Assembly (NCBI RefSeq): GCF_041200145.1
Contig: NZ_CP165734.1
Location: 5,518,001 to 5,582,000, forward strand
Length of the DNA: 64,000 nt
DNA from: Bradyrhizobium sp. LLZ17
Lineage (GTDB): Bacteria > Pseudomonadota > Alphaproteobacteria > Rhizobiales > Xanthobacteraceae
Direction of reading: 5' to 3'
A program made the translations under genes and the position numbers. The notes under the pieces were generated by a model, which was not told the DNA's origin, made no database searches, and saw only the letters and a program-made list of their open reading frames with translations. This document shows, one piece after another, positions 50,840 to 59,879 of the stretch (its first letter is position 1; each line of letters opens with the position of its first letter).

Positions 50840-52332
<1,493 letters not shown>

Positions 52333-52336
<4 letters not shown>

Positions 52337-53430
52337 GAGCAAAACTCCTCGGCAAGGCCGGCCAGCGGCAGCCTGAGAACCCGGCCCGGCCCCTTTGCGA
52401 TCAGGACGAGGTCGTCGCCCATCTCGATCGCCGCAACGATGCCGTGGTTGGCACCGTCGACGCGGCTGTGCAGCGAATAGAGCGGCTGGCCTTCCGCATC
52501 GAGGCGGATGACGAGGCCATAGGAGCGCGGCGGCGCCCATGGCTTGATCACGCCCATGGTCTTGATGTGCGCGCCCTGCATCGGCTCCTTGAACGAGATG
52601 CCGGAGCGCAGGCGCGGCGCAACCCAGTACGCCGGGTCAATCTCCGCCATCATCCGACGCCGATAAGCGGGCTCGCGCAACACGAACTCGACGAGCTGTG
52701 TACGTGCTGTGAAAGCAGTGAGCCAATAGCCGCCGCCCGAGGCCTTTGTCAGTCGCGACGGATAAACGGGAAGGTGAGCGAGCACGATCCGCGGCGACGC
52801 GCCCGGCGTCAAAAAAACGAGGCGGTGGCGCCAGCTCTCGCTGACCAGCACGCCGTTGTCATGTGCGCAGGCGCCGAAGGCGTAACCAAGTCCCTGGGCC
52901 AGTCGCGTTACGGTCTTGTTCCGGGGATCCAGCCGGAACACGCGGCCGGTCCGGTTCATCTCCATCAGGTCGCGCGCCCAATCGTCCACGCTGCATGTCG
53001 CTGAGCCGTCTGTCGCAATGAGGGTGTTGTCCTCCGCCAGCGCGAGCGCATTGATCGCGTTGAACGCCGCATCGGCAAACGACACACTCGGTTGCTCAGC
53101 CGATGGGCTTGCGTAAAGCCGCACCTCGCGTCCGCCGAGCGCGACGGCGAGGCCGCCGCCGGGCAGCGCGCATAGTGCCGTGATCGACCGCTCGAAGGCG
53201 CGCACCTCCGATGCGGATCCGGCGTTCAGGCACATCAGCCGCTGTCCGTTGGCGACGAAGAGGTTGTGGCCGTCGGTGGCGAGGTCTTCCGGCGCCTCGC
53301 AGGTCAGCAAGGTCTCGGCCGATTCCAGCTTCTGGTTAGGCTTCAGCGCGCCGTCGAAGGAGGGCACGGTGATGGTGGCATCGCCGCGCCCGAGAAAGCG
53401 GTTGGCGAACTCTTTGACAGCCGCGATCAC
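52333..53430 (-). CDS. SMP-30/strictosidine-synthase-like beta-propeller protein
   Basis: Predicted 365-residue beta-propeller protein without a signal peptide, so cytoplasmic. I chose the GTG at 53430: it shares bases with the stop of the fused permease (GTGA) and has GGGGGAAG upstream. Propeller repeats with central PxD/N-type patterns are visible, such as ITALCALPGGGLAVAL and KASGGGYWLTAFTARTQLVE. It is related to the propeller domain of the fused gene (SGGGYWL against SDGNYWLAL) but diverged. Activity might be lactone or ester hydrolysis, as in gluconolactonase/arylesterase families; metal ligands cannot be assigned by eye. Confidence 0.8.
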
Positions 53431-55550
53431 GATAGCTTCCCCCACCGCTTGTCATACTGAACGAAGTTCGCATCGGCGTTTTCGAGCTTGTAGCGGCCGA
53501 TCCGGTTGTTGGCGATGCCGCCGAGATAGAGATAGCCGCGGTGTTCGCGCATCGAGGTGATCATCGGATGGTTTTCGCCGCGCAGGTCCCAGAACGATTC
53601 GAGAATCTTGCCCTGCTCGTTGAATTTGACCACGCAGCCGGTATTAATGTTGGGGAATAGCCATTCGTCGACCGGCACGCGCTTGGCCATGCGGCGCCGG
53701 AAGCCGGGCATCTTCCAGGCGAGGTCGAGCGAGGGGCTGCGCATGCCGACCAGCGCCAGCCAGTAATTGCCGTCCGAGGCGAGATTGATGTTGTCAGGAT
53801 AACCTGGGAGGTTGTCCATCACCATCTCGACCGTGCCCTTCTTCGGTCCCGCGAACCAATAGCGCTTGATCGAGCAACCGAACGTCTCGGCGAACAGGAT
53901 CGACTGGCCGTCACTGGCGACGCAGATGCCGTTGGGGAATTTCAGGCCGCGCAACTCGGTTCGTGTCGCACCGGTCTTGGTATCGTAGGAAATGATGCGC
54001 CCGTTGCCGCGCGCTTCCAGTCCGTCGATCGGCCATTCGTCCATCTCGTAGCGGACGGTCGCTTCGGAGAAGAAGATGAGGCCGTCGTCGGTGATGTCGA
54101 GGTCGTCGGCGAGCCTCAGGCGGCTGTCGTCGTTGACCGAACGCATGCTGCGGTTGGTTTCGTCGGTCGCCTTTTCCACCGTGCCGTCCGGCTTGATGCG
54201 ATAAAGTCCCATGCCGCCGATACAGATGTAGAGGTTGTCCTGGCGATCGAACGCCATGCCGAGCGGCTGGCCGCCGATATGGGCGAACACCTCCATGGTC
54301 TGATAGTCGGGCGCGAGAAAGCGGATGATGTCGCCGTGACGCGACCCCGCATAGAGATTGTCGTGGCGATCGAGGATGACATCCTCCGGTGCCTCGATGC
54401 GGCCAAGGCCGATCAGCTCGACATCGCGCAGCTTGTCGTTCTGCTCGAACGGGCCGCCATGGCCAATTTCGGTCGACGGTGGTGGCGGCAGGGCGTGATA
54501 GGTCGGCGCCACGTAGACCTTGCTGATGATGCGCGTGCGGTTCTTCTGCCAGCGGATATCCACCATCGCCGCGACGAGCAGGATGCCGGCCAGCGCCATC
54601 CGGTTGACGCCGCCGCGGGCGTTCATGGTCGTGAGGCCATTGGTGATCAGGAGCACGATCAGCACCCCGACGGCCGATTTGGCAACCGAGCCCTTGCCGC
54701 CGCCGAGCGTGATGCCGCCCAGGACGGTCGCGGTCAGCACGATCACCTCTAGCCCGACGCCGATGTCGCCACCGACGGTTCCGAGCCGAGATGCGAAGAA
54801 CAGCGCACCGATGCTGGTCAGCACGCCGCTGGCGACGTAGCAGAGCGCGATGGTGCGACGCACGGGAATGCCGGAGTTGTACGCGGAACGGCGCGAGCCG
54901 CCGATCGCGGTGATGTGCCAGCCCGGGCGTAGCCGGGTCAGGAAGATATGGCCGAAGACGGCGATCACGACATAGGCGAGCGCTACGGTCGGAACGCCGA
55001 AGACGCTGCCGCCGCCGAGAAAATCCCAGGACGGGATGTCGGGGAAGGCCGACGCGATCGCATTGGAATAGCGCTGGATCAGGAGGTCGTAGGCGGAACG
55101 GTAGATGATCAGCGTGATCAGCGTGGTGATGAATGCGCGCAGCCGCAGGTATCCGACCAGGATGCCGTTGACGGCGCCGAGCAGTGCACCGCAGAGCAGC
55201 GTGGCGGCCACCACGGCCGGCACCGGCCAGCCCAGCACCTCGAGCAAATAGAGCGCGCAGAAATCAGTCAGCGCGAAGATCGAGCCAACAGACAGATCGA
55301 TGCCGCCGACGATGACGACCAGCGCCAGGCCGAGCGCGATGAAGCCAATCTCTCCGGCCTGCCGCGCCGTGTCGGCGAGGCTCGCCGGCGACAGGAAGTT
55401 ATCGATGGATCGGCTGAGCGCGAAGCCGATGATCAGGAGCAGGATCACCGGAATGGCCGTCTCGGTCCATCGCTTGGACAGGATTTCGCCGAGCAGATGA
55501 TCGGGCCAGTAGCGGTAACGCAGGCTTGTCAGGGTGTCGCGCATCGGCAT
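53427..55550 (-). CDS. Fusion: sugar ABC permease + strictosidine-synthase/SMP-30-like beta-propeller
   Basis: Predicted 707-residue fusion protein. Residues ~1-335 form an RbsC-like permease (AGEIGFIALGLALVVIVGGI, DLSVGSIFALTD and the coupling loop GSRRSAYNSGIPVRRTIALC). The last helix is ~320-335. A short Pro-rich linker (PPPPST) near 355 leads to a propeller at ~380-700: RIEAPEDVILDRHDNLYAGS, FPNGICVASDGQSILFAETF, DNLPGYPDNINLASDGNYWL. I start at ATG 55550; a second ATG at 55544 is possible. In RbsC both ends are cytoplasmic, which would place the propeller at the cytoplasmic exit of the transporter. The fusion is complete and without a stop. Confidence 0.9.
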   Translation of the reverse strand: MPMRDTLTSLRYRYWPDHLLGEILSKRWTETAIPVILLLIIGFALSRSIDNFLSPASLADTARQAGEIGFIALGLALVVIVGGIDLSVGSIFALTDFCALYLLEVLGWPVPAVVAATLLCGALLGAVNGILVGYLRLRAFITTLITLIIYRSAYDLLIQRYSNAIASAFPDIPSWDFLGGGSVFGVPTVALAYVVIAVFGHIFLTRLRPGWHITAIGGSRRSAYNSGIPVRRTIALCYVASGVLTSIGALFFASRLGTVGGDIGVGLEVIVLTATVLGGITLGGGKGSVAKSAVGVLIVLLITNGLTTMNARGGVNRMALAGILLVAAMVDIRWQKNRTRIISKVYVAPTYHALPPPPSTEIGHGGPFEQNDKLRDVELIGLGRIEAPEDVILDRHDNLYAGSRHGDIIRFLAPDYQTMEVFAHIGGQPLGMAFDRQDNLYICIGGMGLYRIKPDGTVEKATDETNRSMRSVNDDSRLRLADDLDITDDGLIFFSEATVRYEMDEWPIDGLEARGNGRIISYDTKTGATRTELRGLKFPNGICVASDGQSILFAETFGCSIKRYWFAGPKKGTVEMVMDNLPGYPDNINLASDGNYWLALVGMRSPSLDLAWKMPGFRRRMAKRVPVDEWLFPNINTGCVVKFNEQGKILESFWDLRGENHPMITSMREHRGYLYLGGIANNRIGRYKLENADANFVQYDKRWGKLS

Positions 55551-55629: not shown

Positions 55630-56646
55630 TTATTTCTTCAGGTCGCTGAGATTCCAGCAGGTCGTCTGGCTGTCGGCGTTCTCCTTGGTGATCGGAATCA
55701 GCGTGGTGTATTCCGAGCCCTTGATCGACCCGGGCTTGGCGCCCGACGACAGCAGCCATTTGATCGTGCCGGCCATCTGCGCTGCCTGGGTCGGCACGTC
55801 GTAGCTCATGTCGAGATCGAACGCGCCGGACTTCACCAGTTCGCAGGCGCCCTTGCGCTCTCCGCCACCCGAGGTGGTGACGAACACCTTGCCCGTGAGG
55901 CCGGCTTCCTTGACGGCCGCGGCGGTGCCGATGTCCATGCCGTCCCAGAAGCCGACGATGCCGCAGAGATCGGGATTTTGCTTCAGGACCGTTTGCGTGA
56001 TGGCCTTGGCTTTGGCCGCATCCCAATCGGCGGCCTGGCTGGACACCACCTTGATCTCGGGATGCTTGGCGAGCACGTTCTCGACGCCCTTCAGCGTATA
56101 GGCGCTCGCGGCGGCCGACAGCGCCCCCTGGATGATCGCGATCTTGTTGGACTTGCCCTCGCAGGCCTTGACCACGCCTTCGGTCTGCCGTTCGCCGATT
56201 TCGACCCAGTTGGCGCCGACGAAAGCGGAGCTCCGATAGGCCGAGCCCATGTTGATCTGGATGACGTAGATGCCTTCGTTCTCGGCGCGTTGCAGCAATT
56301 TGGCGTAGGTCTGCACGTCCGGATTGTGAACCACCATCACCGCCGGCTTCTCCGAGATCAGCGAGGTGACGGCTTGCGCGCCGGCGTTGGTGTTCCAGTT
56401 GGCATCGCGGATCACGAACTTGACGCCGAACGGCTCGAGCTCCTTCTTCAGCCCGGCATACCAGCCCTCGGTGAGGTCGAAGTTCATGGCGACTGGGACG
56501 TAGGCCACGGTCTTGCCGGCCAGCGCTTCCTTGAACGGCTTCTGGAACGGCTCGTCCAGGCCTTGCTGGGCAAGAGCCGGTGCAGTCATTGCCGCGAGAG
56601 CCAATGTGGCAACGATCGCCTTTGTCGGGCTACCAAAATGTTTCAT
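55630..56646 (-). CDS. Sugar ABC transporter substrate-binding protein (RbsB type)
   Basis: Predicted 338-residue periplasmic binding protein of the ribose/xylose type (PBP I-like). Signal peptide MKHFGSPTKAIVATLALAAM cleaved near QA-QQ. The core has AYVPVAMNFDLTEGWYAGLK, SEKPAVMVVHNPDVQTYAKL and ADWDAAKAKAITQTVLKQN, with the ligand-cleft Asp region GFWDGMDIGTAAAVKEAGL. It lies between the two permease genes, 37 bases downstream of the first permease stop. The ligand is unknown, but its neighbours imply a sugar or sugar-lactone. Confidence 0.93.
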   Translation of the reverse strand: MKHFGSPTKAIVATLALAAMTAPALAQQGLDEPFQKPFKEALAGKTVAYVPVAMNFDLTEGWYAGLKKELEPFGVKFVIRDANWNTNAGAQAVTSLISEKPAVMVVHNPDVQTYAKLLQRAENEGIYVIQINMGSAYRSSAFVGANWVEIGERQTEGVVKACEGKSNKIAIIQGALSAAASAYTLKGVENVLAKHPEIKVVSSQAADWDAAKAKAITQTVLKQNPDLCGIVGFWDGMDIGTAAAVKEAGLTGKVFVTTSGGGERKGACELVKSGAFDLDMSYDVPTQAAQMAGTIKWLLSSGAKPGSIKGSEYTTLIPITKENADSQTTCWNLSDLKK

Positions 56647-56682: not shown

Positions 56683-57654
56683 TCAGATGTCGCCTTGTTG
56701 TGCCGTTTCTTCGTTGCGCGGATTCAGGAAGGAGTCCGTGATGACAGCCAGCAGCAGAACCACGCCCTTGATGAGATTTTGTCCGGCGTAGGAGATATCC
56801 ATAATGGTCATGCCGTTGAGCATCGTGCCGATCAGCAGCGTGCCGATGACGACGTTGAGCACGCCGCCGCGACCGCCGGACAGGCCGATGCCGCCCAGCA
56901 CCACGACCAGGATCACGTCGTAGATCAGCGTCGAGTTGAACACCCGGGTCGGCATCGAATTGACGGATGCGGCCATCACGAGGCCGGCGAAGCATCCGAT
57001 CAGCGCTGCGACGACATATTGCAGGACGATGATCGGACGCGACGGGATGCCGGTGACGCGCGCGGCATAGGGGTTATCGCCGATCGCGTAGATATAGGCG
57101 CCCCACCGCGTCTGGCGCAGCAGGAAGGCGACGACGACGCAGGCGATCGCAAACATCACGATCGACGTTGGGATGCCGAGAATGGTGCCCTGTCCGAGGC
57201 GCTCGAAACCGTCCATGCCCGAGCTCCATTGCACGACGTCGAGCTGAAACAATGCGGCTTGCCCAAGTCCGGCCAGCAGCAGGCCGGTTGCGAGCGTCGC
57301 AAACAGCGAGGGCACCTCGGCATAGGCGATCAGCCAACCGTTGACGAGGCCGAACGCGATCGTGAGGATCACGGCGGTCAGAAGCGAGGCCGGCAGCGAG
57401 TGACCGTTCTGCACCATTTGCAAGACGAGCCCTGGGGGCACCGCGAGCGCCGCGATCAGCGAGATGTCGATGCCGCGTCCGATCACGACGATCGCCATGG
57501 CAAGGCCGAGGATGCCGAGCACCGCCACGTTCTGGAGCAGCGTTAGCATATTGTCCGCAGTCAGAAAGCCGTTCAGGAAAATCGAGAACACGAGGAAGAG
57601 CAGCGCGAAGACGGCGAAGACGATCTCTTGCTGATTGAATCGAATGCGCGTCAT
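56683..57654 (-). CDS. Sugar ABC transporter permease (RbsC type)
   Basis: Predicted 323-residue permease and the first gene of the operon. The ATG at 57654 (MTRIRFNQQEIVFAVFALLF) follows AGGAAAG; upstream residues are not plausible. Conserved segments are GILGLAMAIVVIGRGIDISL, GDNPYAARVTGIPSRPIIVL (coupling loop) and VVVLGGIGLSGGRGGVLNVV. It forms the transport pair with the fused permease at 53427. Binding protein, two permeases and one tandem ATPase make a complete importer. Confidence 0.93.
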   Translation of the reverse strand: MTRIRFNQQEIVFAVFALLFLVFSIFLNGFLTADNMLTLLQNVAVLGILGLAMAIVVIGRGIDISLIAALAVPPGLVLQMVQNGHSLPASLLTAVILTIAFGLVNGWLIAYAEVPSLFATLATGLLLAGLGQAALFQLDVVQWSSGMDGFERLGQGTILGIPTSIVMFAIACVVVAFLLRQTRWGAYIYAIGDNPYAARVTGIPSRPIIVLQYVVAALIGCFAGLVMAASVNSMPTRVFNSTLIYDVILVVVLGGIGLSGGRGGVLNVVIGTLLIGTMLNGMTIMDISYAGQNLIKGVVLLLAVITDSFLNPRNEETAQQGDI

Positions 57655-58247: not shown

Positions 58248-59879
58248 ATGGACATGTTGAGCGACATCGCAGCCACTATCTCGAAAGCGCGCGAGCATTC
58301 CATCGGCGATCTCCTGCGCCGCGCAGGCAGCCGCGAGCCAGGCAAGCTTGCCGTGAGCTGCGGCAGCGTGAGCTGGACCTTTGCCGAGATGGACGCGATC
58401 TGCAACCGACTCGGGCGCGGCCTGCTCGGTCTCGGTGTGACGAAGGGCGACCGCCTCGCCGTACTCTCGCGCAACTCGCATGCCTTTGCGGCACTGCGCT
58501 TTGCCGCAGCGCGGATCGGCGCGGTGCTGGTGCCGATCAACTTCATGCTCAATCCGGACGAGATCAATTTCATCCTGAAGAGCTCGGGCGCAAAGCTGCT
58601 CGCGGTCGGCCCTGATTTCGTCGAAGCGGCGCGCGCCGCAAGCGCCAAGAATAGCGGCAAGGATTGCGCCGTTGAAAAGCTGATCTGGCTGCCGGGCGAG
58701 GATCCGGCCTCGGCGCCCGCAGGCCTCACCACGTTCGACGATCTCCTCAGCCCCGACGGCTCGTTTCTGGAGGCGTCCGTCGACAGCCGAGATCTCGCAC
58801 AGATCGTCTACACCAGCGGTACGGAATCGCTGCCCAAGGGTGCGATGCTGACCCATGAAGCCGTGATGTGGCAATATGTCAGCTGCATCATCGACGGCGG
58901 CATGAGCGTGGACGACAAAGTCCTGCACGCGCTGCCGCTCTATCATTGTGCCCAGCTCGACGTCTTCCTGGGGCCGCAGATCTACCTCGGCGCCTCCGGC
59001 GTGATCACGGGCAAGCCGAGCGCCGACAACATCCTGGCGCTGATCCAGGCGCACAAGATCACCTCCTTCTTCGCGCCGCCGACGATCTGGATCGCGATGC
59101 TGCGCTCGCCGAACTTCGACAAGACCGACCTCTCGACGCTGCAGAAGGGTTATTACGGCGCATCGATCATGCCGGTGGAAGTGCTGCGGGAGCTGCAGCG
59201 CCGCCTGCCGAAGGTCAAGTTCTGGAATTTCTACGGCCAGACCGAGATCGCGCCGCTGGCCACCGTGCTGCGCCCGGAAGACCAGCTCCGCAAGGCCGGC
59301 TCGGCCGGCAAGCCGGTGCTCAATGTTGAAACGCGCGTGGTCAACACGGCGATGCAGGACGTCAAGGTCGGCGAAGTCGGTGAGATCGTACACCGCTCGC
59401 CGCATCTGTTGTCCGGCTATTATAACGATCCCGTGAAGACCGCGGCGGCGTTCGCCGGCGGCTGGTTTCACTCCGGCGATCTCGCTACGGTCGACGAAGA
59501 GGGCCACATCACCGTGGTCGACCGCGTCAAGGACATGATCAAGACCGGCGGCGAGAACGTCGCGAGCCGCGAGGTCGAGGAGATGGTCTATCGCATCCCT
59601 GCGGTCTCGGAAGTTGCCGTCGTGGGCCTGCCTGATCCGCGCTGGATCGAGGCCGTCACCGCCATCGTCGTGGTCAAGACCGGCGAGACGCTGGATGAGG
59701 CGGCCGTCATCAAGCATTGCGGCGGCCAGATGGCACATTTCAAGGTGCCCAAGCGCGTCATCTTCGTCGACAGCCTGCCGAAGAACCCGAGCGGCAAGCT
59801 GCTGAAGCGCGAGCTGCGCCAGCGCTTCCTCGGCGCCGAGACGCTCGACAAGGCGGTCCAGAAGAACTCTGGGAGGTGA
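58248..59879 (+). CDS. Acyl-CoA synthetase (long/medium-chain fatty-acid-CoA ligase family)
   Basis: Predicted 543-residue AMP-forming ligase. The ATP/AMP motif is IVYTSGTESLPKGAML, where ES replaces the common TG. Later motifs are NFYGQTEIAPLATVL, WFHSGDLATVDEEGHITVVD, RVKDMIKTGGENVASREVEE and the C-terminal catalytic Lys in PKNPSGKLLKRELRQR. It activates a carboxylic acid, probably a fatty or aromatic acid, to its CoA thioester. The ATG at 58248 follows AGGAGTCCGGGGG. A strong hydrophobic first part is absent, so it is cytosolic. Confidence 0.92.
   Translation: MDMLSDIAATISKAREHSIGDLLRRAGSREPGKLAVSCGSVSWTFAEMDAICNRLGRGLLGLGVTKGDRLAVLSRNSHAFAALRFAAARIGAVLVPINFMLNPDEINFILKSSGAKLLAVGPDFVEAARAASAKNSGKDCAVEKLIWLPGEDPASAPAGLTTFDDLLSPDGSFLEASVDSRDLAQIVYTSGTESLPKGAMLTHEAVMWQYVSCIIDGGMSVDDKVLHALPLYHCAQLDVFLGPQIYLGASGVITGKPSADNILALIQAHKITSFFAPPTIWIAMLRSPNFDKTDLSTLQKGYYGASIMPVEVLRELQRRLPKVKFWNFYGQTEIAPLATVLRPEDQLRKAGSAGKPVLNVETRVVNTAMQDVKVGEVGEIVHRSPHLLSGYYNDPVKTAAAFAGGWFHSGDLATVDEEGHITVVDRVKDMIKTGGENVASREVEEMVYRIPAVSEVAVVGLPDPRWIEAVTAIVVVKTGETLDEAAVIKHCGGQMAHFKVPKRVIFVDSLPKNPSGKLLKRELRQRFLGAETLDKAVQKNSGR

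Follow-up and report, generated by a model that had tools for sequence, protein, structure and literature searches.

A CUT2-type ABC permease fused to a putative hydrolase propeller in a conserved five-gene cassette of Proteobacteria

The DNA analysed here is a stretch of 64,000 nucleotides from Bradyrhizobium sp. LLZ17 (contig NZ_CP165734.1, positions 5,518,001 to 5,582,000), referred to below as the window. Its minus strand carries a five-gene operon in the order permease (PERM1), binding protein, permease-propeller fusion, second propeller (PROP2) and ATPase, and the third gene, the fusion, is the subject of this study. A preliminary description of the window had reported one unbroken frame joining a permease of an ATP-binding cassette (ABC) transporter to a full beta-propeller, and this was confirmed, since the single open frame 53427-55550 encodes 707 amino acids (aa) from its ATG, without interruption, and contains permease and complete propeller Pfam domains. 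The features, assigned from open reading frames, Pfam, NCBIfam and an AlphaFold2 (AF2) model, are the following.

50840..52336, minus strand: RbsA-like ATPase with two ABC domains (Pfam, NCBIfam).
52333..53430, minus strand: PROP2, second, unfused propeller (Str_synth, 27.9 bits against a cut-off of 25); AF2 mean predicted local distance difference test (pLDDT) 86.7; metal-ligand positions lost.
53427..55550, minus strand: fusion protein, CUT2-type ABC permease plus strictosidine-synthase-like/SMP-30 propeller, 707 aa (open reading frame, Pfam, AF2 model).
54516..55550, minus strand: permease half of the fusion, residues 1-345; ten spans assigned, both ends predicted on the cytoplasmic side (BPD_transp_2, model helices, charge distribution).
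54387..54515, minus strand: linker region, residues 346-388; 40-43 residues, distal end overlapping SSL_N (366-411) (Pfam, AF2 model).
53427..54455, minus strand: propeller half, residues 366-707; ligand positions E389, D482, N540, D586 and N587.
55630..56646, minus strand: periplasmic substrate-binding protein (Peripla_BP_4; Pfam); N-terminus signal-peptide-like by eye.
56683..57654, minus strand: PERM1, second, unfused CUT2-type permease (Pfam; start set by homologue comparison).
58248..59879, plus strand: acyl-CoA ligase (AMP-binding; Pfam), a divergent flanking gene and possible functional partner, with orthologues at other Bradyrhizobium loci.

In the fusion, Pfam placed BPD_transp_2 at residues 58-329 (E 6e-30), and SSL_N at 366-411, SGL at 412-602 and Str_synth at 482-568 (E 6e-19). 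The preliminary description had called for a model and had considered that the propeller might be unable to fold; the AF2 model (mean pLDDT 84.5, predicted template modelling score (pTM) 0.66) gives a folded six-bladed propeller, and a fold search with this model returned TGW6, strictosidine synthases, DFPase and Drp35 as the closest folds, with TGW6 (8kg3) as the best solved match by both sequence and fold. The fold-search rows shown for the fusion were all propeller matches, the permease fold being assigned from Pfam and the helices only, and a single-sequence search gave no solved relative of the permease half at E 0.001.

The four-base overlaps between the fusion and PROP2 (GTGA) and between PROP2 and the ATPase gene (ATGA) suggest that these three genes are translationally coupled. 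PERM1 and the fusion both matched BPD_transp_2 (104.7 and 98.5 bits, cut-off 26.8), the binding protein matched Peripla_BP_4 (141.7 bits, cut-off 35.1), and the ATPase contained two ABC_tran stretches, its best NCBIfam relatives being of the XylG, AraG and RbsA types, below their equivalog cut-offs. None of the NCBIfam sugar-transport equivalogs among the matches listed reached its cut-off.

Of 105 relatives, the best 80 were compared as named loci; 72 of them have this gene order, and the remaining eight are cut by contig ends. The 80 loci include Bradyrhizobium, Rhodopseudomonas, Vineibacter, Chelatococcus and Mesorhizobium as well as Burkholderiales such as Variovorax and Hydrogenophaga. 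The fusion was also detected in 15 plasmid records (E <= 1e-100) of Shinella, Rhizobium, Rhodobacterales, Paraburkholderia and Pantoea; the order was identical in all 12 annotated plasmid loci (one stretch stops before the ATPase), and all five genes were likewise present in the three unannotated records.

The two-domain order, for which a search in other genomes had been proposed, was found in many of them, in Alpha-, Beta- and Gammaproteobacteria. The protein search covered 5.8 billion proteins, scored 7999 candidates and admitted only lengths of 0.55-1.75 times that of the query, which excludes shorter stand-alone relatives. Within this scope the fusion gave 3519 matches at E <= 0.001, with both domains in 120 of 120 of the matches listed, and a distant paralogue used as query likewise gave both domains in 120 of 120. 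In a phylum sample of 398 genomes (E <= 1e-10; at most five candidates scored per genome, so that copies may be missed), 17 propeller matches from 11 genomes were at least 53% identical and all lay in frames of 707-840 aa, while all remaining propeller matches were at most 39% identical and lay in frames of 354-627 aa. This gap suggests that the fused propellers form a separate clade and that the fusion is old. A class sample of 385 genomes, scored with the same limit per genome and sharing some genomes with the phylum sample, contained the fusion in 10 genomes (E <= 1e-80) as 16 copies, 15 of them in frames of at least 707 aa; the sixteenth lies in a 559-aa frame of G727, a 280-contig assembly. 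A frameshift or wrongly merged assembly, which the preliminary description had named as a concern, is ruled out by the open frame and its recurrence at 707-840 aa in many genomes.

Some single records stand apart. The most divergent fused copy (L185:8387-10555, plus strand; propeller 49% identical) has a very long branch and an unsure position in the tree. A fused protein (P0238) is listed for a metagenome-assembled genome of Candidatus Cybelea, which would presumably fall outside Proteobacteria, and a record named Frankia sp. RB7 (L011) holds a fusion 96% identical to that of the window and is probably a mislabelled or contaminated assembly.

In all 103 fused proteins compared, the linker, which the preliminary description had also singled out, is 40-43 residues long, and chance read-through of two genes is ruled out because its length is so conserved. 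With the ten membrane spans taken from the AF2 model, a mean of 14.6 Lys/Arg per sequence was counted in the loops on the side of the N-terminus, compared with 0.8 in those on the other side (103 sequences). Because of this charge distribution and the helix count, the propeller is predicted on the cytoplasmic side, tethered by 40-43 residues, in agreement with the earlier proposal that both permease ends face the cytoplasm and that the propeller lies inside. A periplasmic propeller is unsupported by either the charges or the helix count.

All 118 fused proteins compared retain the four metal-ligand positions, as lactonases and esterases do, which bears out the lactonase/arylesterase-type motifs reported earlier. 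In PROP2, on the other hand, these positions are lost, with Asn replaced by Arg in 102 of 103 sequences. This suggests that a probable hydrolase and a dead propeller copy stand side by side in the cassette. The ligand positions were tied to TGW6 by alignment, and N540 and D586 also to regucalcin by hhalign, where the ligands include Asn-154 and Asp-204; hhalign aligned this region sensibly but not the N-terminal Glu, whose assignment follows from counting from the first residue aligned to TGW6. D482 is acidic in most fused proteins, whereas TGW6 has Asn-167. Sequence alignments end at fusion residue 599-600, short of strictosidine-synthase Glu-309, the equivalent of which, by motif, would be the invariant Thr-665. 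The 118-protein set consists of the earlier fused set plus 15 proteins, and the tree was built on 57 rows after thinning at 93% identity. Of 94 fused loci, the initial fused alignment omits four whose identity to the window is 96% or more, as well as the truncated L087, and the initial PROP2 set holds all 90 found, with five loci missed (L040, L050, L076, L078 and L087); L187 was left out of the analysis.

Identity to the window was higher for the propeller half than for its own permease half in 57 of 59 complete cassettes. In the most distant group (n=18), mean identity was 63.5% for the ATPase and 55.9% for the propeller half, compared with 47.4% for PERM1, 47.1% for the permease half, 40.7% for the binding protein and 40.1% for PROP2. 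By these means, the propeller half is held more tightly than the solute-choosing parts and less tightly than the ATPase.

In five genomes the cassette adjoins a degradative 3-hydroxy-3-methylglutaryl-coenzyme A (HMG-CoA) reductase, and in four of them also an HMG-CoA lyase. At L113 the reductase matched TIGR00532 (431 bits, cut-off 260), the lyase scored 411 bits (cut-off 246), and a family III CoA transferase lies beside the cassette. Reductases of the L113 type occur in 31 of 297 genomes of the order (E <= 1e-40), three of which provided adjacency cases, and two more came by other routes, from Shinella sp. HZN7 (no lyase in the stretch) and G702. The reductases of L152, L181 and L183 are 80%, 78% and 74% identical to that of L113, that of L125 being taken from the record annotation; at L152, L181 and L183 the reductase, the five-gene cassette and the lyase follow each other in this order, all on one strand. 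A MocR-type regulator lies next to the reductase in L113, L183 and L161, and probably in L125. In the tree, the five reductase-linked copies fall inside one 13-row group (support 93/67) and the four other than L113 form a clade (support 100/100); the reductase link takes two label changes, a number as low as which was reached in none of 500 shuffles (mean 4.9).

The activity of Drp35 of Staphylococcus aureus on mevalonolactone is 478 umol/min/mg, at least 100 times that on the other lactones tested (PMC6052127). Considering this activity and the adjacency of reductase and lyase, mevalonolactone or mevalonate is the leading candidate for the substrate of the reductase-linked sub-lineage. An SMP-30-type propeller was found within the stretch in three of the 28 other reductase genomes (L161, L164 and L172), the first two from one genus and hence not independent. 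At L161 this propeller comes after a TRAP transporter, and it has an N-terminus that resembles a signal peptide. These stand-alone propellers with signal-like N-termini near an HMG-CoA reductase (L161:10595-14820 and L164:5023-7467) are candidate secreted mevalonolactonases. The same pathway would then come in two arrangements, one in which an acid transporter accompanies a probably secreted propeller and one in which the propeller is cytoplasmic and uptake is by an ABC importer; at most of the 31 reductase loci, neither was seen in the stretches examined, some of them shortened by contig ends.

Neighbour genes differ by lineage, and no neighbour is common to all cassette copies. Among the 69 loci for which 4 kb or more of upstream sequence was available, 38 have acyl-CoA ligases, of several kinds, although these loci are closely related and the 38 not independent. 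Several Bradyrhizobium loci besides that of the window have an orthologue of its ligase next to the cassette. CoA transferases lie downstream of the cassette in five Burkholderiales loci, CoA-type genes occur in five of 12 annotated plasmid loci, and sugar genes lie near at least two plasmid loci (Pantoea and Paracoccus seriniphilus). For the window copy, we infer that an organic acid would be released by hydrolysis and then CoA-activated. Its substrate would be another than the mevalonolactone proposed for the sub-lineage.

Taken together, we consider it probable that the cassette encodes a CUT2-type importer with a tethered metal-dependent hydrolase, which would open a lactone or ester inside the cell and trap the acid, accompanied by a dead partner propeller and with paralogues that differ in substrate. 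This reading draws on the fusion, the operon, the kept and lost ligands and the gene neighbourhoods as observed, together with a predicted topology and fold, and from these we infer metal binding, hydrolysis, substrate, trapping and propeller pairing. The binding protein would capture a neutral lactone or organic-acid ester, which the two permeases and the double ATPase would bring in; at the inner face the tethered propeller would open it to the acid, which, being charged, could not leak back and would often be CoA-activated and passed on to catabolism. PROP2 would be a non-catalytic companion. It may pair with the fused propeller, an arrangement to which the presence of two permeases would lend a natural two-fold, or it may sense the product through its nearly invariant arginine. 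Different paralogues would carry different substrates, with mevalonolactone or mevalonate as the best case for one sub-lineage, and the position of the cassette beside mevalonate-catabolism genes in some bacteria suggests that food molecules are trapped by splitting on entry. A wider claim, to which we give slightly less than an even chance, is that these systems form a distinct class of ABC importers, in which a hydrolase that is part of the permease, and has a dead twin, opens the ring of an imported lactone (mevalonolactone in one lineage) and makes uptake irreversible, and that the class spread to many organic acids by exchange of the binding protein and pocket.

Several observations weigh against this interpretation. 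The model leaves the relative orientation of permease and propeller unfixed (pTM 0.66), so that, of the earlier placement of the propeller at the channel exit, the cytoplasmic side is supported while the exact position is not settled by the geometry. In TGW6, where most of the ligand positions are present, no Ca2+ was seen by its authors (PMC10958001). No acyl-CoA ligase was seen nearby in 31 of the 69 loci mentioned above, nor any CoA-type gene within the stretch in seven of the 12 annotated plasmid loci, the loci with sugar genes being among these seven. The cassette lies beside the reductase in only three of the 31 reductase genomes (G055, G818 and G940) when the surroundings of all 31 reductases were examined, at least nine stretches being shortened by contig ends, and the mevalonate link is thus confined to one sub-lineage. 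Moreover, the window genome gave no match to the degradative HMG-CoA reductase family (TIGR00532), which rules out the window copy as a mevalonate importer, and the mevalonolactone proposal therefore does not carry over to it.

The fused propeller might instead be a sensor or gate. Without catalysis, it would bind the compound taken up, or the product, and thereby control the ATPase cycle, as the CBS domains do in OpuA. The near-constant tether length, the retention in the operon of a PROP2 without metal ligands and the lack of observed Ca2+ in TGW6, the nearest solved relative, would agree with such a role. A pure sensor, however, would be expected to drift with its substrate, while the ligand set is kept throughout the 118 proteins although the mean identity of the binding proteins is as low as 40.7% in the most distant group, and PROP2 is the likelier sensor of the two; we regard this role as unlikely. 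Somewhat less likely still is that the substrate is a plant acyl or aryl sugar ester, like that of TGW6, and that the propeller splits it inside the cell into sugar and acid, which would be a special case close to the hydrolase reading, with a sugar conjugate instead of a lactone. In its favour, TGW6, an enzyme that hydrolyses a glucose ester of indole-3-acetic acid (IAA), is the best solved match, 38 loci have acyl-CoA ligases, and many members come from genera known from soil and legume nodules; yet D482 is acidic in most fused proteins where TGW6 has Asn-167, the fusion is also present in Rhodobacterales, some of them from seawater, and the reductase-linked loci fit a lactone better.

The sugar substrate of the preliminary description, in its version of an importer whose propeller opens aldonolactones on entry, appears doubtful, and we give it little probability. 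SMP-30 relatives include sugar lactonases, the transport genes (permease, ATPase, binding protein) belong to the CUT2 type of sugar importers, and sugar genes occur near the plasmid loci of Pantoea and Paracoccus seriniphilus; but no sugar-transport equivalog listed reaches its cut-off, and the frequent neighbours are CoA ligases, CoA transferases, acyl-CoA dehydrogenases or HMG-CoA enzymes, of the kind used on organic acids. Paraoxonase-type enzymes can degrade signal lactones, and uptake and degradation of acyl-homoserine lactones or other such signals would suit the lactonase-type fold and ligand positions and the Pfam Arylesterase signature of some members; we hold this to be very improbable, no quorum-sensing gene having been recognised in the neighbourhoods read, although no search was aimed at such genes.

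Compared with known systems, the hydrolase reading combines familiar parts. CUT2 importers (TC 3.A.1.2; RbsABC, AraFGH, Als, Ytf) match in permease, ATPase with two nucleotide-binding domains and Peripla_BP_4 binding protein, and differ in that here there are two permease genes, one of them propeller-fused, and a free second propeller, with scores below every sugar equivalog cut-off listed. The N6P superfamily (SMP-30, strictosidine-synthase-like, DFPase, paraoxonase) shares the six-bladed fold and the four metal-ligand positions, but the propeller here is tethered to an ABC permease, and unfused matches are at most 39% identical in the 398-genome sample. Vectorial acylation and LplT-Aas also pair a transporter with an enzyme, the solute being chemically changed at the inner face and uptake made irreversible; there an acyl transferase or CoA ligase acts on a facilitator, whereas here a hydrolase-type domain is attached to an ABC importer. 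The mevalonolactone lactonase Drp35 of Staphylococcus has the same fold, but is not permease-fused and is 15% identical over the structural alignment. TGW6 comes from rice and acts on a sugar ester. Strictosidine synthase (2fp8) also shares the propeller fold, but true strictosidine synthases are metal-independent outliers without the ligand set (PMC4215206), and in this the fusion, where the set is present in 118 of 118, differs from a Pictet-Spengler strictosidine synthase.

A literature search by title and abstract, with subscription papers mostly outside it, found no description of a permease-propeller fusion, which is no proof of absence; within that literature, the earlier statement that no such transporter was described holds. 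The combination is present in databases under uninformative names, and the present reading would correct 'ribose transport system permease protein' and 'SMP-30/gluconolactonase/LRE family protein'. To our knowledge, hardly any ABC importer permease is known to carry a fused enzyme domain, and here such a fusion is conserved over three proteobacterial classes, with a propeller more conserved than the pump half and a probable dead twin. The idea that chemistry at the inner face can make uptake irreversible could be tested on this system, which also provides a substrate candidate (mevalonolactone) for one lineage and a candidate transporter for bacterial mevalonate catabolism.

Other loci showed further variation. 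On contig C25 of G702 (L182, L183; about 34750-57670), three complete tandem cassettes lie within about 23 kb, the third reductase-linked and the other two with different neighbours, as if duplicated for new substrates. The PERM1 match of L033 and the binding-protein and ATPase matches of L038 are each in two pieces, perhaps from frameshifts or sequencing errors. In a Comamonadaceae locus (L075:2524-4833, plus strand), the acyl-CoA ligase upstream of the cassette lies in one 769-aa frame with TetR_N, TetR_C_24 and AMP-binding domains, a possible regulator-enzyme fusion, and a frame of similar length at L084:1520-3874 (plus strand) is perhaps alike, domains having been scanned in L075. After the ATPase gene, both loci carry an 800-aa frame (L075:11736-14138 and L084:10792-13194, plus strand), with two CoA-transferase III stretches in the L075 scan.

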